From an uncultured Alphaproteobacteria bacterium (GTDB lineage Bacteria; Pseudomonadota; Alphaproteobacteria; Geminicoccales; Geminicoccaceae): a DNA stretch of 33,785 nucleotides. The translations under genes and the position numbers were made by a program. Positions 3,226 through 30,655 of the stretch are shown here, piece after piece (positions within the stretch are counted from its first letter, which is position 1; each line of letters opens with the position of its first letter). The stretch spans positions 1 through 33,785 of the forward strand of contig CADEGR010000008.1 in assembly GCA_902826935.1 (NCBI GenBank), written 5' to 3'. The notes beneath the pieces are model-generated. The model did not search any database. It was not told where the DNA came from and saw only the letters and a list, made by a program, of their open reading frames with translations.

Positions 3226-3927
3226 TCAGCGTGCGAGATCGGGCGGCGGCGGGCCGGCGACCGGCCAGGCGCCGCTCGCGGTCAAGATGTCAGCCGCCCA
3301 GCCACCGGCGCCCTTGGTGCAGCGCACCGGCAGGGCGTTGTGGCTGGTCCACTCGGCGACGGTCAGGCCGAGCGCTGCGAACAGCACGCGCCGCACGCCG
3401 CCATGGGACACGACCAGGACATCATCGGCGACGAGAGCCGCCGCCAGCCCGGTGAGGCAGCGATCGACGAACGCCTCGATCGGCTCGACGCTGGCATCGG
3501 CCTGGGCCCAGAGCGGCCCCTGGATCGGCTGGCCCTCGAAGCGGCCAAAGCCACGTTCGCGCAGGCGTGGATCCAGGCTCGCGACCAGGCCAAGACGCGC
3601 CGCCAGCGGCGCCGCCGTCGCGGTGACGCGGCTGAGATCGCTGGCGCTGATCGCGCGCAGCCCGACCGGCGCGAGGAGGTCGGCCGCGGCCAGAGCCTGG
3701 GCCCGGCCGGCGGCATTCAGCGGCACATCCCGCTGACCCTGGCAGATCCAGCGCCGATTGTGCTCGGTCTGGCCATGGCGCAGGAAATAGAACCGGCTGG
3801 CGAGCGGCGCGAAGCCATGGCCGCGGGCATGGGCCTCGAGCCGCTGGCGCCAGCCTTGATCGAGCACCGCGCCGTCTTCGGCCGGTGCGCCCGGCTCGAG
3901 CCCGATCGGCTCGGACGTTTCGGTCAT
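3226..3927 (-). CDS. Histidine phosphatase family protein
   Basis: A 233-residue member of the phosphoglycerate-mutase-like histidine phosphatase superfamily. The phospho-acceptor motif is FYFLRHGQTEHN (R50, H51, G52) and the second catalytic His is in VVSHGGVRRVL (about H175). LRERGFGRFEGQP supplies the acidic/loop element. An N-terminal extension of about 45 residues precedes the core. The ATG overlaps the stop of the upstream lipoprotein gene as ATGA, so the pair is probably translationally coupled. The substrate is unknown; small phospho-metabolites and sugar phosphates are typical of the family. A longer frame reaching 4188 runs back through the lipoprotein gene and is a shadow. Confidence 0.85.
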   Translation of the reverse strand: MTETSEPIGLEPGAPAEDGAVLDQGWRQRLEAHARGHGFAPLASRFYFLRHGQTEHNRRWICQGQRDVPLNAAGRAQALAAADLLAPVGLRAISASDLSRVTATAAPLAARLGLVASLDPRLRERGFGRFEGQPIQGPLWAQADASVEPIEAFVDRCLTGLAAALVADDVLVVSHGGVRRVLFAALGLTVAEWTSHNALPVRCTKGAGGWAADILTASGAWPVAGPPPPDLAR

Positions 3928-5471
3928 TGGGTCGAGCTCAGGGCACCGCCCGGCGCTTCGACGTTCAAGAACAGATGGCTGACCGCGAGGCGCCCGCCGC
4001 TGCTGACGCGCAGCGCCGCCAACCGCTCCTCGAGGGTCGCCAGATACGCGTCGGCCGGTTCCTCCTCGGGCCGCGGCCCCTCGAATAGGGGCGTCGGCGT
4101 GGCCACCGCCACCACCAGCGACAAGCCGAACGGCTCCGCCAGGCGATGGCCGGTCTCCTCGACATAGCTGCCCAGATCGGCCGGCCACAGCTCGCTGGTC
4201 GAGATCAGATGCTTGACCATGCCGTCGCGCTGGACATAGGCCAGATGCAGGTAGGAATCGAAGCTCGGCAGATCGATGTTGACCGCTAGCTCGCTGCCAG
4301 CCGGGCGGCTGGTGACGCCATCCGGCACGCTGATCGCCAGGCCGAGACCGGCCTCGACATTGATCTTGCGGTAGGGCGCCGTGATCTGCAGCAGGCGGCA
4401 GAACGGCTGCTCGACGCCAGCGCAGTCGAGCGAGGCCAGGACCGCGGCATCGGCGCGGTCGATGAAGCTGGCGGTCTCGCTGACACTGCCGGGATCTGCC
4501 GTGGGCGGCGCGCCGGGCGCCGGCTCGACGGCCGCCAAATCGCCGGGCGGCGGCCCTTCGGGGGTCACCGCATCGGCGATCCGATCGGCGATCTCAGCGC
4601 CGCCAGCCGCGGCGGTCGCCGCTGCTTCGGGCGTGCCGCCGCCCTCCGCTGCCAGCGCTGCCGCCGGGTCCGCCACCGGTTCCGGACGATCCAGCGCCGC
4701 CTCGATCTCGGCTGCCTCGGGCGGCGGGCTCAGCGTCTCGGGCGCGGCCGCGAGCGGCACCGGCTCCGGCTCCGCCTCCTCTGGCGCGGCCGGCGGCAGG
4801 GGGCTCGGCAGATCGGCCTGGGCGATCGTCGGACCGCCGAAATCGCTCGGCACGCCGTCCAGCAGCGCCGCCTCGAACACGCCCTTCGACTGGCAGATCG
4901 TGCCCTTGTCGAATGCGCCGCGGCTGCCGGAATTGAAGGTCACGGTCTCGCGGCTGCCGCGCCGCAGCTGGCCTTGGCGGTCCTCGAAATCGACCACCTT
5001 GGTGGCGACGTAGGTGGTATCCGCCTTGACCACGGTGTCAGCGCCCTGCGGCTCGAGGCTGACCACGACCCGGCCGTCCAGCTGCAGGCTGCGCTTGAGC
5101 AGGACCTGGCGCTTGGCGAGCTTGTAGTCGAGGGCGACCTGGGGCAGCGCTCCGGACAGCTGGGCCAGGGCCTCGCCATCATTGGTGACGATCGAGCCGC
5201 AATCCAGATATTGCTCGGGATCACCGCGAAAGCGCGCCACGATCACCCGCTCGGCGCGGTCGGCATGCTCGATCGTGTAGGGCTGCTGGCTCAACACGTC
5301 GCGCAAGCTCGCCCAGACCGTGTCGGCGTCGCCGCGCACGACCTTTTCGGTGCGCTGCGCCGGCTGGCTGGACGGGGGCACATAACCGACCATCTCGCGT
5401 GCCGGCGGAGTAGCGGCGCAGCCGGCCAGCAGCAAGGCCGCCATGGCGCCCAGGGGCACAGCGCGATTCAT
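3924..5471 (-). CDS. Lipoprotein with acidic Pro/Ala-rich linker and DUF4384-like C-terminal domain
   Basis: A 515-residue exported lipoprotein. Residues 1-18 are a type II signal with lipobox LLAGC (C18). Residues about 35-215 form a globular domain I cannot name. Residues about 220-335 are a disordered Pro/Glu/Ala linker. Residues about 350-480 read like DUF4384 (GLAISVPDG, then DSYLHLAYVQRDG and a conserved W/P region), a module seen on envelope-associated and signalling proteins. The start has GAGG at good spacing. It is first in a two-gene unit with the histidine phosphatase. A role as a periplasmic scaffold or sensor is inference only. It is divergent from the glutaminase-like fusion gene across 214 bp. 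Confidence 0.8.
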   Translation of the reverse strand: MNRAVPLGAMAALLLAGCAATPPAREMVGYVPPSSQPAQRTEKVVRGDADTVWASLRDVLSQQPYTIEHADRAERVIVARFRGDPEQYLDCGSIVTNDGEALAQLSGALPQVALDYKLAKRQVLLKRSLQLDGRVVVSLEPQGADTVVKADTTYVATKVVDFEDRQGQLRRGSRETVTFNSGSRGAFDKGTICQSKGVFEAALLDGVPSDFGGPTIAQADLPSPLPPAAPEEAEPEPVPLAAAPETLSPPPEAAEIEAALDRPEPVADPAAALAAEGGGTPEAAATAAAGGAEIADRIADAVTPEGPPPGDLAAVEPAPGAPPTADPGSVSETASFIDRADAAVLASLDCAGVEQPFCRLLQITAPYRKINVEAGLGLAISVPDGVTSRPAGSELAVNIDLPSFDSYLHLAYVQRDGMVKHLISTSELWPADLGSYVEETGHRLAEPFGLSLVVAVATPTPLFEGPRPEEEPADAYLATLEERLAALRVSSGGRLAVSHLFLNVEAPGGALSSTQ

Positions 5472-5685: not shown

Positions 5686-7482
5686 ATGATGGCTCGGCAA
5701 GGCCCGCCCGCCCAGGCGGAGCCCCTTTCGCCGATCGATGCGATTCTCGACGAGGTCTATCTGCGCCAGCGCGCCAACGCCCAAGGCAAGCGGGCGGCGC
5801 TGGTGCCGGACACGGCCGATCTGCGCGCCTTCGGCCTGACCATCGAGACCATCGACGGCCATTGCTACGAGCGGGGCGAGGTCGCGGTCAGCTTCCCGCT
5901 GCACAGCCTGGCCGACATGTTCGTGCTGGCGCTGGCGCTGCAGCTGATCGGCAGCGACACTCTGCGCAAGCGGCTGGCGAGCGACCGGCCGGCGGGCCGC
6001 CCGGCCGGCGACAATGGCGCGCCGCGCGAGCCGACCGCGGTGTTGTGCACCAGCCTGATCACCGAGCAGCTCGGCCAGAAGACCTGCGAGAGCCTGCGCC
6101 GCTATGTCTCGGCCTTCGTCGGCCGGCAGCTCGCGGTCAACCCGTCGGTCTATCGGGCGCGGCTGGCGGACGGCGAGCGGCGGGCGGCGCTGGCGGCGGC
6201 GCTGGGCCAGCGGCCGAGCCTGCAAGCCCCGGCGGACGCGGTGATCGAGACCTATCTGCAGCTGGGCAGCCTCTGCCTGAACGCCGCCGAGCTGGCCCTG
6301 GCGGCGGCGACCTTTGCCAATGCCGGCACCAACCCGCGCTCCGGCGAGCGGGTGATCCACCCCGATATCGTGCCGCATGTGCTGAGCGCCCTGGGCGTCG
6401 CCAACGCGGCGGGCGGCTGGCACTACCGCCTCGAGCTGCCGACCCAGAGCGGCGCCGGCAGCGGCCTGATCGCGGTGGCACCGGGCCAGCTGGGGCTCGC
6501 CGCCTACTCGCCGCTCCTGGACGAGCAGGGCTTCAACAGCCGCGGCCTCGCCGCATTGCACGAGCTGGCCCAGCAATTCGGCCTGCAGGTGCTCAAGGGC
6601 GGCCAGAGCCGGCAATCCCAGGTCCGCCATGTCACCAGCCTAGCCGATCGGCGCTCGGTCCAGCGGCGCGGCCACGACGAGCGCAAGGTGCTGGACAAGC
6701 ACGGCCGGCGGGTCCTGATCTTCAGCCTGACCGGGATCCTGGGCTTCGGCGCCGCGGAGTACATTGCGCGCCGGCTGACCGATCAGCCGGACCTGATCGC
6801 CTTCGTGGTCGATCTGAGCGAGGTCAGCACGATCGACCGGGCCTGCGGCATGCTGCTGGCGGATCTGGCCGATCGCGCCGCCGGGCGCGGCATCGAGGCC
6901 CTGTTCGTCGGCAAGGAGCTGCTGTTCCACGGCATCGCCCAGCGCTCTTCCGCCTTGGCCGAGGGTGGGTTCCATCCTTACCTGGATGACGCGCTGGAGC
7001 AGGCCGAGGACCGGCTGCTGGCGCGCTGCCTGCGCGAGGTCGCCCAGCCCGCGGCCGCCGAGCTTGGCCAGAACGAGCTCCTGACCGGGCTCGAGAGCGC
7101 CGATATCGCCTGGATCGAGAGCCTGTGCGTGCCGACCGAGTTCGCGGTCGGCGCCTATCTGATGGAGGCCGGCACGATCGGCTCGGGCATCTATTTCCTG
7201 CTGGACGGCCAGGTGCGCGTGCAGAATGCCAAGGGCATGCCGCTGGCGGTGCTGCGCCAGGGCAGCGCGGTCGGCGACATGGCGCTGATCGATGGTGGCC
7301 CGCGCTCGGCCGACGTGGTGGCGATGACGCCGGTCGAGGCGCGGCTCCTGACCGGCCATGCCTTCGCCTCGATCCGCAGCGCCCGGCCGGACGTGGCCCT
7401 GACCATCGTGACCAATCTCTGCCGGACGATCAGCGGCCGCTTGCGCGACATGCAGCGCCTGGTCCAGGCGCTGGGCGGCTAG
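5686..7482 (+). CDS. Degenerate glutaminase domain fused to STAS and cyclic-nucleotide-binding domains
   Basis: A 598-residue fusion. Residues about 15-315 align by eye to the serine-dependent glutaminase (GlsA) fold: GLTIETIDGHCY, FPLHSLADMFVLALAL, SLCLNAAELALAAATFANAGTNP, YRLELPTQSG and GQLGLAAYSPLLDEQG. Residues about 330-435 are a STAS domain (LIAFVVDLSEVSTIDRACG). Residues about 475-590 are a cNMP-binding domain (GSGIYFLLDGQVRV, then VGDMALIDGGPRSADV). In active glutaminases the catalytic block is QS-x-x-K; here it reads H73-S74-L-A-D77, so the Ser is kept but the Lys is Asp and the preceding Gln is His. The NAGA(I/L) block and the PAKSG lysine are also absent. The domain is therefore probably a ligand-sensing or scaffolding pseudoenzyme. 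The start may be 5686 or 5689. Confidence 0.85.
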   Translation: MMARQGPPAQAEPLSPIDAILDEVYLRQRANAQGKRAALVPDTADLRAFGLTIETIDGHCYERGEVAVSFPLHSLADMFVLALALQLIGSDTLRKRLASDRPAGRPAGDNGAPREPTAVLCTSLITEQLGQKTCESLRRYVSAFVGRQLAVNPSVYRARLADGERRAALAAALGQRPSLQAPADAVIETYLQLGSLCLNAAELALAAATFANAGTNPRSGERVIHPDIVPHVLSALGVANAAGGWHYRLELPTQSGAGSGLIAVAPGQLGLAAYSPLLDEQGFNSRGLAALHELAQQFGLQVLKGGQSRQSQVRHVTSLADRRSVQRRGHDERKVLDKHGRRVLIFSLTGILGFGAAEYIARRLTDQPDLIAFVVDLSEVSTIDRACGMLLADLADRAAGRGIEALFVGKELLFHGIAQRSSALAEGGFHPYLDDALEQAEDRLLARCLREVAQPAAAELGQNELLTGLESADIAWIESLCVPTEFAVGAYLMEAGTIGSGIYFLLDGQVRVQNAKGMPLAVLRQGSAVGDMALIDGGPRSADVVAMTPVEARLLTGHAFASIRSARPDVALTIVTNLCRTISGRLRDMQRLVQALGG

Positions 7483-7555: not shown

Positions 7556-7634
7556 TGGTCCATGCGATCCTGGGAATCCGCGCGTCGAGCAATCGACTTG
7601 TTGGCGGGGCGGACTCCCAGGATCGCATGGACCA
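7556..7634. repeat. REPIN-like inverted pair of a dispersed 24-bp repeat
   Basis: Copy 1 (7556-7579, +) begins TGGTCCATGCGATCCTGGGA and ends ATCC. Copy 2 (7611-7634, -) is the same sequence in inverse orientation with one difference (GTCC). They can form a 24-bp stem with one mismatch around a 31-nt loop. A third copy, identical to copy 2, lies at 30333-30356. This fits a REP doublet; no REP-associated transposase is in the window. Confidence 0.85.
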
Positions 7635-23469: not shown

Positions 23470-23673
23470 TTACTGGAAGGCGACGCCGCTCCTGCAGCCA
23501 AGCCGGCGGAACAGCATGGCCGCCGGGCAGAAGCCGGTCAGGGACGCCTGGATCAGGTTCAGGCCGACAAAGGCGGTGAGCAGGTGCCAATAGGGCGAGA
23601 CATAGAGCCCCAGCACCAAGGACAAGAGCACCATGCCGCCTGCGAACATCATGACAGCGCGATCAATCGACAT
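23470..23673 (-). CDS. DUF2892 (YgaP-like) inner-membrane protein
   Basis: A 67-residue protein with two helices (VMMFAGGMVLLSLVLGLYVSP and WHLLTAFVGLNLIQASLTGF) and the family's end motif GFCPAAMLFRRLGCR with two cysteines. DUF2892 modules are found alone or fused to rhodanese domains (YgaP) in sulfur-handling contexts. ATG 23673 is set by GAGGAG seven bases upstream. It lies 51 bp after the sulfide:quinone oxidoreductase and 11 bp before the RND adaptor, so it is the middle of the operon. A role in sulfane-sulfur handling or thiol sensing at the membrane is inference from the neighbourhood. Confidence 0.85.
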   Translation of the reverse strand: MSIDRAVMMFAGGMVLLSLVLGLYVSPYWHLLTAFVGLNLIQASLTGFCPAAMLFRRLGCRSGVAFQ

Positions 23674-23724
23674 CAGAGATCTCCTCGTCGGCAAAGACTA
23701 GGTTTAGGACCGGCAGCCGCGCGG

Positions 23725-25017
23725 CTAGTCGGCCTCGGCGATATGGATGGCCTTCAGCTTCTTGATCCCGAGCAGATCGAGGGTCAGGTTCTCGTAGAAA
23801 GTCTCGCTCTTGCCGCGTCGGACCTTGTGCAGGAAGTATTTCTCGAAGCCGATCTTGGCGGCGTGGACCCATTTGCCTTGCGACGACCAGTTGACGTTGC
23901 GCGGCGGGATCTGAGGCTGGGCGACGAAGGCGATGCCTTGATCGCCGAAATCGGCCAGGCAGACCGCGTTCCAGGTCGCGGCGGCATTGGCCGGCGCGCC
24001 CTGCAGCACAGCACCGATATTGTGGGCGGTGGCGGTGACCATCGATTCGATCATGAAGCCGGTCTTGGGCACGCCCACCGGCAAGGGCGTCTTGCCGACC
24101 GGCGGTATCGCGACGCAGACACCGACGGCGAAGATATTGGGGAAGGCCGGGTTGCGCTGGTGCTGATCGATCAGCACGAAGCCGCGCGGGTTGGTCAGAC
24201 CAGGGATTCCGGCAATCGCCGCGACGCCGCGGAAGGCGGGCAGGATCATCGAGAGCGCGAACGGCAGCTCGTGGGCCGCCTTGGCCGCACCGTCCTCGCC
24301 AACCTCCTCGACCAGCATCCGGCCCGGCTCGACCTGATTGATGCGGGTGTTGACGTGCCACTTGATGTGCCGCTCGCGCATGGCGCTTTCGAGCAGGCTC
24401 TTGGTGTCGCCGACGCCATCCAGCCCGAGATGGCCGATATAGGGCTCGGGCGTGACGAAGGTCATCGGCACCCGGTCGCGGACCCGCGCCCGGCGCAAGG
24501 CGGTATCGAGGATGAAGGCGAATTCGTAGGCCGGGCCAAAGCAGGATGCGCCCTGGGCGGCACCGATCACCACCGGTCCTGGCGCCTTGACCAGCGCCTC
24601 GAACGCCGCCTTGGCGTGGAGCGCATGATCAAGCTGGCAGATCGACTGGGTATGGCCCTTTGGGCCCAGCCCCGGCACCTCGTCGAAGGCCAGCTCGGGC
24701 CCGGTCGCGATCACCAGATAGTCGTAGTCGAGCATGCTGCCGTCCAGCAGCTCGAGCCGGTTGGCTTCGGGTTGCAGGCGCTTCGCCCCTTCGGGCCGCA
24801 GCTCGATGCCGCGCCGGCGCAGGACCGCCGCGAGATCGACCGTGATCTCCTCGGGCGCGCGCCAGCCCACCGCGACCCAGGGATTGGACGGCACGAAATG
24901 GAAGCTGCTCCCAAGGTTCACCACCGTCAGCCGATCATCCCGCCGCAGCTTCGCTTTCATCTCGAAGGCCATGAGCACGCCGCCCAGGCCGGCACCAAGC
25001 ACCACGATATGCGCCAT
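23725..25017 (-). CDS. Sulfide:quinone oxidoreductase
   Basis: A 430-residue FAD enzyme that oxidises sulfide and passes electrons to the quinone pool. The N-terminal dinucleotide fold is HIVVLGAGLGGVLMAFEM, with the second FAD block DYDYLVIATGPELAF. Three cysteines fall where the SQR active-site set is expected: C127 (SICQLDHA), C159 (QGASCFGPAYEF) and C353 (NAVCLADFGDQGIAF). They agree closely with C128/C160/C356 of the Acidithiobacillus enzyme as I remember it. GVCVAIPPVGKTPLPVGVPKTGFMIESM is the quinone/FAD-proximal motif. ATG 25017 follows GGGGAGGGAGG. It is first in the operon SQR-DUF2892-adaptor-RND and divergent from the persulfide-sensor-like repressor. Confidence 0.93.
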   Translation of the reverse strand: MAHIVVLGAGLGGVLMAFEMKAKLRRDDRLTVVNLGSSFHFVPSNPWVAVGWRAPEEITVDLAAVLRRRGIELRPEGAKRLQPEANRLELLDGSMLDYDYLVIATGPELAFDEVPGLGPKGHTQSICQLDHALHAKAAFEALVKAPGPVVIGAAQGASCFGPAYEFAFILDTALRRARVRDRVPMTFVTPEPYIGHLGLDGVGDTKSLLESAMRERHIKWHVNTRINQVEPGRMLVEEVGEDGAAKAAHELPFALSMILPAFRGVAAIAGIPGLTNPRGFVLIDQHQRNPAFPNIFAVGVCVAIPPVGKTPLPVGVPKTGFMIESMVTATAHNIGAVLQGAPANAAATWNAVCLADFGDQGIAFVAQPQIPPRNVNWSSQGKWVHAAKIGFEKYFLHKVRRGKSETFYENLTLDLLGIKKLKAIHIAEAD

Positions 25018-25202
25018 CACCCTCCCTCCCCGAGTAGGGCCGGCCCGCACCGGCCGGACGATTGGGGTCGGGCTTGCGGCAGCACAAGGCTCCGACCATC
25101 ATGGCGGACACGGCGTCGCGCCGCTTGATCTGGCGCAATCGCCGCGGCCCGCCGGCCGATGGTCTGGCTGATTCGCAACCAGCGTCTCGGCTCCATTGCA
25201 TC

Positions 25203-27143: not shown

Positions 27144-27494
27144 TTACCGCCTGGCCCAGTGGCGGCAGACGGCCTCGGTCAGGGACTGGGCATGGGCAAG
27201 CGCCGGCGCGCCCGTGGCCGGGCCATCGTAGCTGCCCGCCCGCCGCAGGCTCTCGAAGAAGCCGGCACCCGGCAGGCGATCGCTCTGGCGGACCACCAGG
27301 ACCGCGAGCTCGGGCTCGCCGCGCGCCCGGTTGCGGGCGCAGACCAGGCCCAGATCGCGGCATAGATGGCTGACCAGATAAGGCCCCGGGCGCAGGCCGA
27401 AATAGCGCAGGACCTCGCCATAGGTGATGCTGCGGCCGGCCCGCGCCTGCTCGATCAGGAGCGCTTCCAGCGCATCGATGTCGACCAGCGGCAA
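27144..27494 (-). CDS. Hypothetical protein downstream of prpE (TTG start)
   Basis: A 116-residue protein: ALEALLIEQARAGRSITYGEVLRYFGL, SHLCRDLGLVCARNRARGEPELAVLVVRQSDRLPGAGFFESL. The ITYGEV and LxVLVV...LPGxGFF elements recur in an uncharacterised alphaproteobacterial family; I can give no function. It begins 10 bp after the prpE stop on the same strand. No ATG or GTG is in frame before the conserved part, so the start is TTG 27494 with only a weak RBS. It probably depends on readthrough or coupling from prpE. Confidence 0.6.
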   Translation of the reverse strand: MPLVDIDALEALLIEQARAGRSITYGEVLRYFGLRPGPYLVSHLCRDLGLVCARNRARGEPELAVLVVRQSDRLPGAGFFESLRRAGSYDGPATGAPALAHAQSLTEAVCRHWARR

Positions 27495-27504
27495 GGGCCA
27501 GCGC

Positions 27505-29403
27505 TCACAGCTTAGCGTAGCCCAGGCGCTGCAGCGCGGCCTTGATCTCGTCCAGGATCACCGGATCGTCGATCGTGGCCGGGATGCGGAAGGGCCGGCT
27601 GTCGGCGATGCTGCGCATGGTGCCGCGCAGGATCTTGCCGGACCGGGTCTTGGGCAGGCGCTGCACCACGGTCACCAGCTTGAAGGCGGCGACCGGGCCG
27701 ATCACCTCGCGCACCCGCTGGACCAGCTCGGCCTGCATCTGCTCCTCCGGCCGCTCGGCGCCCGATTTCAGCACGACCACGCCCAGCGGCAGCTCGCCCT
27801 TCAGCTGGTCGGCGACGCCGAACACGGCGCATTCGGCGACGTCCGGATGGCCGGCCAGGACCTCCTCCATGGCGCCGGTCGAGAGCCGGTGGCCGGCGAC
27901 GTTGATGACGTCGTCGATCCGGCTCATGATGAACAGGTAGCCGTCCTCGTCGACATAGCCGGCATCGCCGGTCAAGTAGAAGCCGTCGTAGCGGGCGAGG
28001 TAGCTGTCGTAGTAGCGCTGCTCGTTCTGCCACAGGGTCGGCAGGGTGCCAGGCGGCAGCGGCAGCTTGACCACGATATTGCCAATCGTGCCGGCCGGCT
28101 GCGGATCGCCCGCCTCGTCCAGCACCTGCACGTCGTAGCCGGGCACGGCCTTGGTTGGCGAGCCCGGCTTGACCGGCATCCGCTCGAGGCCCAGGCAATT
28201 GGCGGCGATCGCCCAGCCGGTCTCGGTCTGCCACCAGTGATCGATCACCGGCCGCTGCAGCTTGGTCTCGGCCCAGTGCAGGGTATCGGGATCGCAGCGC
28301 TCGCCGGCCAGGAACAAGGTGCGAAAGCCGCTCAGATCGTAGTTGCGGATCAGAGCGCCTTCCGGATCCTCTTTCTTGATGGCGCGAAAAGCGGTCGGTG
28401 CGGTGAACAGGCAGGCGACCTTGTGCTGCTCGATCACCCGCCAGAACGCGCCGGCATCGGGCGTGCCGACTGGCTTGCCCTCATAGACCAGGGTCGTGTT
28501 GCCGTGCAGCAGCGGGCCGTAGACGATGTAGCTGTGGCCGACCACCCAGCCGACATCGGACGCCGCCCAGAAGACCTCGCCCGGCTTGACGTCATAGATG
28601 TTCGCCATGGTCCAGTGGAGCGCTACGGCGTGGCCGCCATGGTCGCGCACCACGCCCTTGGGCTGGCCGGTCGTGCCCGAGGTGTAGAGGATGTAGAGCG
28701 GATCGGTCGCGGCGACCGGCACGCATTCAGCCAGGGGTGCGGCGGCCAGCCCCGTTTGCCAGTCGAGATCGCGGCCGGGGGTGAGCGCCGCCTCGGCCTG
28801 CGGCCGCTGCAGGATGATGCAGCTGGTGGGCTTGTGGCTGGCGAGCTCGATCGCCTGATCGAGGAGCGGTTTGTAGGGGATGACGCGGGCGCCCTCGATG
28901 CCGCAGGACGCCGACGCGATCGCCTTCGGCTTGGCGTCGTCGATCCGGGTCGCCAGCTCGTTCGCGGCGAACCCGCCGAACACGACCGAATGGATCGCTC
29001 CGATCCGGGCGCAGCCGAGCATCGCGATCACGGCTTCCGGGATCATCGGCATGTAGATGATGACCCGATCGCCCTTGCCGACGCCTTGCTGGCGCAGCAG
29101 CCCGGCGAAGCGCGCGGTCGCTTCTTGCAACGCGGCATAGGTCAGCTTGCGGATGCTCTGGGTGACCGGGCTGTCATGGATGATCGCGACCTGGTCGCCA
29201 CGGCCGGCGGCGACGTGGCGGTCGACGGCATTGTGGCAGGTGTTGAGCTCGCCGCCTGCGAACCAACGGTAGAAAGGCGGGCGCCGGTCATCCAGGACCC
29301 GATCCCAGCTTTTGTGCCAGTCGAGCGCTTCGGCGACCTCGCCCCAAAAGCCTGCGGGATCGTCGATCGAGCGCCGATAGCTCGCCTGATAGCCGCCCGC
29401 CAT
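27505..29403 (-). CDS. prpE: Propionyl-CoA synthetase-type acyl-CoA ligase
   Basis: A 632-residue AMP-forming ligase of the acetyl/propionyl-CoA synthetase group. It starts YQASYRRSIDDPAGFWGEVAEALDW, as in PrpE. The ATP/AMP motif is YTSGTTGQPKG (about residues 239-250). WAASDVGWVVGHSYIVYGPLLHG and TAPTAFRAIKKEDPEG are PrpE-type rather than Acs-type. WWQTETGW and MSRIDDVINVAGHRLSTGAMEE give the later adenylation motifs. The catalytic, acetylation-sensitive Lys is in PKTRSGKILRG (about residue 587). ATG 29403 follows AGGGGGG. It activates propionate or a similar short acid. No methylcitrate genes are adjacent. The 29403-29490 extension seen in the open frame has no support. Confidence 0.92.
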   Translation of the reverse strand: MAGGYQASYRRSIDDPAGFWGEVAEALDWHKSWDRVLDDRRPPFYRWFAGGELNTCHNAVDRHVAAGRGDQVAIIHDSPVTQSIRKLTYAALQEATARFAGLLRQQGVGKGDRVIIYMPMIPEAVIAMLGCARIGAIHSVVFGGFAANELATRIDDAKPKAIASASCGIEGARVIPYKPLLDQAIELASHKPTSCIILQRPQAEAALTPGRDLDWQTGLAAAPLAECVPVAATDPLYILYTSGTTGQPKGVVRDHGGHAVALHWTMANIYDVKPGEVFWAASDVGWVVGHSYIVYGPLLHGNTTLVYEGKPVGTPDAGAFWRVIEQHKVACLFTAPTAFRAIKKEDPEGALIRNYDLSGFRTLFLAGERCDPDTLHWAETKLQRPVIDHWWQTETGWAIAANCLGLERMPVKPGSPTKAVPGYDVQVLDEAGDPQPAGTIGNIVVKLPLPPGTLPTLWQNEQRYYDSYLARYDGFYLTGDAGYVDEDGYLFIMSRIDDVINVAGHRLSTGAMEEVLAGHPDVAECAVFGVADQLKGELPLGVVVLKSGAERPEEQMQAELVQRVREVIGPVAAFKLVTVVQRLPKTRSGKILRGTMRSIADSRPFRIPATIDDPVILDEIKAALQRLGYAKL

Positions 29404-29490
29404 GTTCTGCCCCCCTGGTTCGCGACTGTTGCCGCGACTGTGGCCGACAATACTGCGCCGCGTCGAGCGGACACAATGTCGCCGCGCCAT

Positions 29491-30300
29491 TCAGCCCGCT
29501 TCCGCCAAGGCCCGGCGCGCGGCCGCCTGCAGCAGCCGACCCGCGGCGTCGGCCGGCGACTGGTCGCGGACCCTCTGGAGGAGGCGGCGCGCGAGCGCGG
29601 CCGAGTGCTCGGGATCGACCGCCAGCAGCGAGGTGGCGCAACCATAGAGCACGTCGCCGGCCGCGGGGTCCAGCAATGCCGCCCGCCGGCACAGCGCCTG
29701 GCCGGTCTCGAGGCTGGCGCCATAGAGCTGCCGGGCGAGCGGCGCGGTGCCGCGCCGGACGATCTGCAGATGCCAGATGCCGAGCAGGCCGTTGGCCCAG
29801 GCATTGTCGGGCGCCAAGGCCAGCGCCCGGTCGAGATGCCGCCTGCCGGCGCGGCCGAGGCCCCGTTCATGGGCAGCCAGGGCGGTCAGCGCCTGGGCCT
29901 GATAGCCGAGCACGATGGCCAGCTGCAGATGGGCGTCGACATGATCGGGCGCCTGCTGCAGCGCCTGCCTGGCGTCGGCAGCGGCGGCCGCAAGCAGCTG
30001 AGGCTGCGCGTCCGGTCCGGCCCGATAGGCGGCCTGCACCAGGGTCGCGCGAGCCGCCAGCACCAGGCCATCGGCGGTGCCAAGCGCCCGCGCCAGGCTG
30101 GCGGCCGCGACCAGCTCGCCGGTTCGGTAAAGCTGCAGCGCCTCGGCATAGGTCGTGCTGGCGGCGGCCGTGATGCTGGCATGGCTCAGCCCCAGGCCGA
30201 GCAGCAGCCCCATTGCCAGGTTGGCCCAGCGCGGCCGCCGTCGATCCGCCCGACGGCACGATCGAACGGCAGCCCGAACGACCTGGGCCAGGACCTTCAC
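29491..30300 (-). CDS. Exported TPR-like repeat protein
   Basis: A protein of about 270 residues made of Ala/Leu-rich helix pairs of TPR type: TYAEALQLYRTGELVAAASLARALG, QALQQAPDHVDAHLQLAIVLGYQAQAL, RHLDRALALAPDNAWANGLLGIWHLQ and RAALLDPAAGDVLYGCATSLL. A basic stretch RRADRRRPRW followed by LAMGLLLGLGLSHASITAAAS looks like a signal peptide with a long n-region, so the repeats probably lie in the periplasm. The start is unsure: GTG 30300 (AAAGG upstream) is my choice, with TTG 30324 and ATG 30213 as alternatives. It precedes prpE on the same strand by 87 bp. Role unknown. Confidence 0.65.
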   Translation of the reverse strand: MKVLAQVVRAAVRSCRRADRRRPRWANLAMGLLLGLGLSHASITAAASTTYAEALQLYRTGELVAAASLARALGTADGLVLAARATLVQAAYRAGPDAQPQLLAAAAADARQALQQAPDHVDAHLQLAIVLGYQAQALTALAAHERGLGRAGRRHLDRALALAPDNAWANGLLGIWHLQIVRRGTAPLARQLYGASLETGQALCRRAALLDPAAGDVLYGCATSLLAVDPEHSAALARRLLQRVRDQSPADAAGRLLQAAARRALAEAG

Positions 30301-30332
30301 CAGGTCGTCACCTTTGCCGGCCAATTTGATCC

Positions 30333-30356
30333 TGGTCCATGCGATCCTGGGAGTCC
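30333..30356 (+). repeat. Third copy of the 24-bp REP-like sequence
   Basis: TGGTCCATGCGATCCTGGGA followed by GTCC, identical to the 7611-7634 copy and one base from the 7556-7579 copy. Here it is single, just beyond the start of the TPR-like gene, in a stretch of decayed sequence. Confidence 0.85.
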
Positions 30357-30655
30357 GTGCGCGGGCCTAACATGGTGCGGTCGGGCGGTCGGCCGCGTTG
30401 GCGGCTGGATGATCAGCCTGCGGGACGTGAGCGAGCCTCGCAAGGCGGCAGACTCATGACTTCTGCCTTGCGGTGAGCATTTTGATGGCAGCGCGGAAGG
30501 GGGGTGCCGAGGTCACGCTCGCTCGCCAATATGTCCGCCGCGCCAAAGCGGGCAGCGGCATCAAGCTTGCCAAGCCCATCGGCAGGATGTGCTTGGTCGA
30601 TACGCGAGGCTTAAAACCGCTGGCCGCCATTTGAGGAGATCACCGCTCATGGCGA
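30357..30655. other. Intergenic stretch with hairpin and a 49-codon frame
   Basis: No supported gene. A hairpin CGCAAGGC (30439-30446) / GCCTTGCG (30465-30472) is present. A basic 49-residue frame (30485-30634, MAARKGGAEVTLARQYVRRA...) has no RBS or recognised domain and may be another mobile-element scrap. Confidence 0.5.

Follow-up and report, generated by a model that had tools for sequence, protein, structure and literature searches.

The gene at positions 5686–7482 of the window (the whole stretch of DNA analysed, 33,785 nucleotides from an uncultured bacterium of the Geminicoccaceae) encodes a protein in which a glutaminase domain is followed by a STAS-like and a cyclic-nucleotide-binding (cNMP) domain, and nearly the whole of the glutaminase active site is gone. 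The three-part architecture is already known and is common in bacteria; the dead version was seen in this genome only. From its residues, the glutaminase domain is almost certainly one that does not hydrolyse glutamine. On balance we favour a reading in which a dead glutaminase scaffold is joined to a working STAS-cNMP module, so that the protein would act as a cNMP-responsive scaffold or adaptor.

Gene and domain organisation

The features of the gene are collected in Table 1. A second in-frame ATG at 5689 provides an alternative start. Pfam recognised the glutaminase and cNMP-binding domains, bearing out the preliminary description, which had seen a glutaminase core followed by two regulatory domains; the Pfam STAS match (residues 341–409, 20.8 bits) falls just below the curated cut-off of 22.6. 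NCBIfam model NF002134, for glutaminases with a C-terminal extension, matches residues 16–411, and a structure alignment with Micrococcus luteus glutaminase Mglu reaches model residues 411–415, covering the STAS region. In the model of the STAS-cNMP half (pLDDT 92), the STAS domain is a confident beta-alpha model.

Table 1. Features of the fusion gene and its product (positions in the window; residues of the 598-residue protein)
Feature	Position	Strand	Observation
Whole gene, pseudo-glutaminase-STAS-cNMP-binding protein	5686..7482	+	ORF and translation, 598 aa, 598 codons, ATG start; Pfam and NCBIfam
Degenerate glutaminase domain, residues 16–305	5731..6600	+	PF04960 at residues 43–302, 164 bits, E 4e-48; model against YbaS 1u60, Z 33
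HSLAD, residues 73–77	5902..5916	+	H73-S74-L75-A76-D77 at the QSxSK site; relatives QS[IVM]SK; Ser74 kept, Lys replaced by Asp77; Lys in 145/145 relatives
PREPTA, residues 113–118	6022..6039	+	NPxxNAGA block absent; gap of four alignment columns between T117 and A118
RLADGERR, residues 159–166	6160..6183	+	E381 replaced by R159, N388 by R166; relatives SE.....RNRAI
GVANA, residues 237–241	6394..6408	+	Relatives GMYD; Tyr466 replaced by Ala239; three residues deleted just before
PTQSGAGSG, residues 252–260	6439..6465	+	Relatives PAKSGVGGG; K481 replaced by Gln254
STAS-like domain, residues 336–440	6691..7005	+	Pfam STAS, NF002134, Mglu alignment, beta-alpha model
Cyclic-nucleotide-binding domain, residues 455–598	7048..7479	+	PF00027 at residues 485–563, 55 bits, E 8e-15; cassette G530-D531...R540-S-A; model match GlxR 3r6s

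The window is part of contig 8 of a 4.77 Mb assembly that is 94.7% complete. No sigma-70-like promoter and no intrinsic terminator were detected close to the gene. A long hairpin lies just 3' of it (7556–7634, arms 7556–7575 and 7615–7634; MFE -72.6 kcal/mol, z -7.9). Its 20-base arm occurs in 83 copies in the genome (40 forward and 43 reverse, with at most 2 mismatches; reversed control 0), often paired about 59 bases apart, and a further arm is found in the window at 30333–30352; the hairpin is a dispersed REP- or MITE-like repeat. Three long open reading frames in the window have no Pfam match (3924–5471, reverse strand; 23584–25128 and 27424–30459, forward strand), and these include a probable lipoprotein divergent from the fusion gene.

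Loss of the glutaminase active site

We aligned the window protein with 145 relatives, among which near-duplicates are possible: 67 came from family and protein searches, and a pattern-based scan supplied the other 78. The scan used two patterns, and because one of them was PAKSGVGGG, these 78 are biased towards an intact KSG block; the 67 are not. Active-site residues are given in human GAC numbering, mapped by motif. S286, K289, N335, N388, Y414, Y466 and K481 were kept in all 145 relatives, and E381 in 142, the exceptions being three single-domain proteins with an MSxSK motif. These three (L006, L066 and L088) are ordinary glutaminases with Ala at the E381 site and Val at the Y249 site, a natural subgroup in which the substrate pocket is altered and the dyad intact.

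Among active-site residues, the window protein retains only Ser74 (S286) and Tyr190 (Y414). The preliminary description had read HSLAD at the QSxxK site, with S74 kept and Lys changed to Asp, and the alignment confirms this; among the proteins aligned, K289 was missing from the window protein only. It had also reported the NAGA and PAKSG blocks as lost, correctly, the first by a four-residue deletion and the second by a change to PTQSG. The losses are wider than it noted and extend to the Y249, Q285, E381, N388, Y466 and V484 sites (Y249 to L39, Q285 to H73 and V484 to A257, besides those in Table 1), so that far more than one Lys is gone. The only lysines in the domain are at positions 35, 95, 132 and 304. 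We searched all six frames, on both strands of the gene, for the missing motifs and found none, and a frameshift or sequencing artefact was rejected as the cause of their loss on this ground.

In GAC, catalysis is assigned to Ser286 and Lys289, the lysine taking the proton from the serine (PMC10912226; PMC13204110), and a docked substrate analogue makes contacts with E381, N388 and Y414 (PMC13204110). As both serine-hydrolase lysines and Y466 are gone, the loss of hydrolysis predicted earlier from the sequence is strongly supported.

The retained Ser74 and Tyr190 could indicate a neofunctionalised enzyme, in which Ser74 would be the nucleophile for another substrate and D77, R159 and R166 would take part in new chemistry. 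There is precedent for reuse of the serine-hydrolase fold, for example in the Rhizobium etli asparaginase ReAV, which resembles glutaminases (PMC8602277). However, ReAV keeps two Ser-Lys pairs, both of which are needed, and the active-site mutants tested were inactive (PMC8602277), whereas positions 77 and 254 of the window protein are both non-Lys; one sequence, moreover, is too few to establish a conserved new motif. We regard this explanation as unlikely.

The same two residues, in the old pocket of a retained fold, would also suit a non-hydrolytic sensor of glutamine or another amino acid that reports ligand binding through the STAS domain, and glutamine sensing had been proposed in the preliminary description. 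This proposal does not hold up well, because the binding residues have been lost as well. Tyr190 (Y414) is the only one of the six substrate residues (Y249, N335, E381, N388, Y414 and Y466) to be kept; the other five have disappeared or been replaced by Arg (two of them), Ala or Leu, and the NAGA loop is deleted. An amino-acid sensor is therefore improbable, and more so than a new enzyme.

Retention of the fold and domain-wise divergence

Forty-four columns of the alignment are near-invariant (at least 95% conserved in relatives), and the window protein keeps 22 of them: 19 of the 28 Gly, Pro or hydrophobic columns, against 3 of the 16 polar ones (Fisher p = 0.004). This is the pattern expected if the fold was kept and the chemistry dropped. 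The AlphaFold model of the window protein (ten-row alignment; pLDDT 79, pTM 0.69) superimposes on Escherichia coli YbaS (1u60) with an rmsd of 2.3 Å over 275 residues and on human GAC with Z about 31. The predicted structure thus retains the glutaminase fold despite the loss of the active site, with the qualification that the alignment behind it was of active relatives, which biases the model towards the known fold; the loops in the regions of the lost motifs (102–115 and 238–256) are of low confidence.

Divergence was compared in separate trees for each domain, with 48 rows (the window protein and 47 fusions), as the ratio of the median path from the window protein to the others to the median path among the others. 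The glutaminase domain gave a ratio of 4.5, STAS 1.08 and cNMP 1.10. Release from constraint is limited to the enzyme domain, and the divergence of the STAS and cNMP domains is normal. Judged by sequence, divergence of 4.5 in the glutaminase domain against 1.1 in the other two has the signature of a pseudoenzyme. The fusions cluster with one another in the glutaminase tree. By path, the rows nearest to the window protein are all fusions, but its placement is unsupported and its position unsure because its branch is very long (3.76, against a median of 0.33).

The main rival to a retained scaffold is that the gene is in decay, its active site having been lost when the gene was no longer needed and its frame remaining open by chance in DNA of 72% GC. 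The gene is rich in GC and its other strand carries long open frames as well, which makes an open frame weak evidence, and the gene comes from a single genome. We found no close relative sharing the losses against which purifying selection on the dead domain could be measured. Against decay, only the glutaminase domain shows the excess divergence, and the losses fall on polar catalytic columns and structural ones are kept. Third-codon-position GC is uniform along the whole gene (0.89–0.95; 0.91 in the neighbouring dinB-like gene), and so large a divergence without a stop or frameshift needs long maintenance. We consider decay unlikely, though the least so of the alternatives.

The regulatory half

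The model of the cNMP domain is nearest to cAMP-binding CRP-type proteins, matching cAMP-bound GlxR (3r6s) with Z 18.8 and an rmsd of 1.9 Å over 139 residues; similarity to the CRP-type group, which includes Mycobacterium tuberculosis CRP, spans Z 17–19 and extends to the cassette Arg. The cNMP pocket had been described as largely intact. This stands for the phosphate-cassette Arg540, which is kept, but not for the usual Glu, which is present in 87 of 90 fusions and is Asp531 here. Unlike the CRP-type proteins, the window protein has no helix-turn-helix (HTH) after the cNMP domain and ends in a long helix, and it is thus not a CRP-like transcription factor. The host genome contains 18 class III nucleotidyl cyclase domains (for example C5:10965-11498 and C15:15110-15613 of G000), which makes a supply of cyclic nucleotide likely. 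With Arg540 kept and these cyclase domains in the genome, cyclic-nucleotide sensing by the window protein is plausible.

Three further proteins of about 750–970 aa (L010, L213 and G825:C1:2559056-2559922), perhaps SulP-type transporters, match only the STAS-cNMP half, and the window STAS domain also matches a BicA model. STAS and cNMP together seem to form a module that can move between proteins. A stand-alone cNMP domain of 139 aa, encoded in a genome of the same family (G018, L069:3659-4078), is 44% identical to the C-terminal domain of the window protein and closer to it than the cNMP domain of any fusion. We considered whether this ORF (L005/L069) was a remnant of the same fusion and rejected the idea, since by eye the upstream frames contain neither glutaminase nor STAS.

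Intact fusions and the rarity of the degenerate form

Glutaminase-STAS-cNMP fusions were found in at least five phyla (Pseudomonadota, Actinomycetota, Verrucomicrobiota, Planctomycetota and Cyanobacteriota). Their attribution to alphaproteobacteria in the preliminary description was right but too narrow, since beta- and gammaproteobacteria and the four other phyla also have them. The window protein resembles the fusions of Bradyrhizobium, Reyranella, Rhodococcus and Verrucomicrobiaceae (L101, L112, L129 and L118) in domain order and size (about 600–640 aa), with 27–34% identity. Every intact fusion checked, however, has preserved the Ser-Lys dyad and the substrate-binding residues; the window protein has not. 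The salt-tolerant Mglu (3if5, 3ih8) shares the glutaminase fold and the C-terminal part that aligns onto the STAS region, but is active and shorter (456 aa), whereas the window protein carries a cNMP domain after STAS and has no active site. E. coli GlsA/YbaS and human GAC/KGA, alike in the fold of the glutaminase domain, have the active Ser286-Lys289 machinery and lack the STAS-cNMP part.

Over the whole PF04960 profile, normal glutaminases scored about 290–404 bits in a phylum-wide set of 398 genomes and 328–399 bits in a class-wide set of 385, against 167 bits over nearly the whole profile for the window protein. Every other match spanning the whole profile in these two sets scored at least 290 bits, and the other low scorers were partial matches, some with a broken frame. 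In other genomes, some glutaminase genes fell into two matches or contained a stop (G587:C104:58742-59588, G452:C24:17671-18529 and G506:C93:56498-56962); these are probable pseudogenes or assembly errors. In the 31 genomes of the order no comparable fusion was found, and those with a glutaminase had the ordinary kind; a first scan of genome contigs with the window protein as the sole query gave no matches. G743 is a fusion whose linker is similar, and its relatives comprised further fusions and ordinary glutaminases. By these comparisons, the dead version of the three-part design appears in this one genome only, among the relatives whose active sites were aligned. No partner shared among the neighbours of intact fusions was found, only clusters of a few related loci. 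A search of an open paper library, which most subscription journals lie outside, gave no literature on glutaminase-STAS-cNMP fusions or inactive members.

The window protein might instead be the regulatory subunit of an active glutaminase, forming mixed oligomers with an active paralogue. Glutaminases oligomerise (PMC10912226), and some genomes have two glutaminases or two fusions. The host genome has a single PF04960 match, the fusion itself, in an assembly that is 94.7% complete, and we judge this the least probable of the alternatives, by far less likely than decay.

A candidate cyclic-nucleotide-responsive scaffold

Glutaminases form dimers, tetramers and filaments. In the reading that we favour, a dead scaffold joined to a working STAS-cNMP module, the ancestor would have been an active glutaminase-STAS-cNMP fusion whose glutaminase domain lost catalysis and amino-acid binding. 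The glutaminase fold may have been retained as a scaffold, most likely for oligomerisation because glutaminases assemble in this way, and the STAS and cNMP domains would have stayed under ordinary constraint. Binding of a cyclic nucleotide at the C-terminal domain could then alter the arrangement of STAS and scaffold and change contact with a partner protein; we infer such signalling by protein contact.

It is possible, and we put this forward tentatively, that the protein is the first pseudo-glutaminase to be identified, a regulated enzyme turned into a cyclic-nucleotide-responsive scaffold, and that the STAS-cNMP part of these fusions has a function apart from glutamine hydrolysis. A scaffold-only member would place glutaminases among the enzyme families that have one. 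Intact three-domain fusions are widespread over several phyla, and a natural version in which the enzyme is dead would allow the role of the STAS-cNMP module to be examined by itself.
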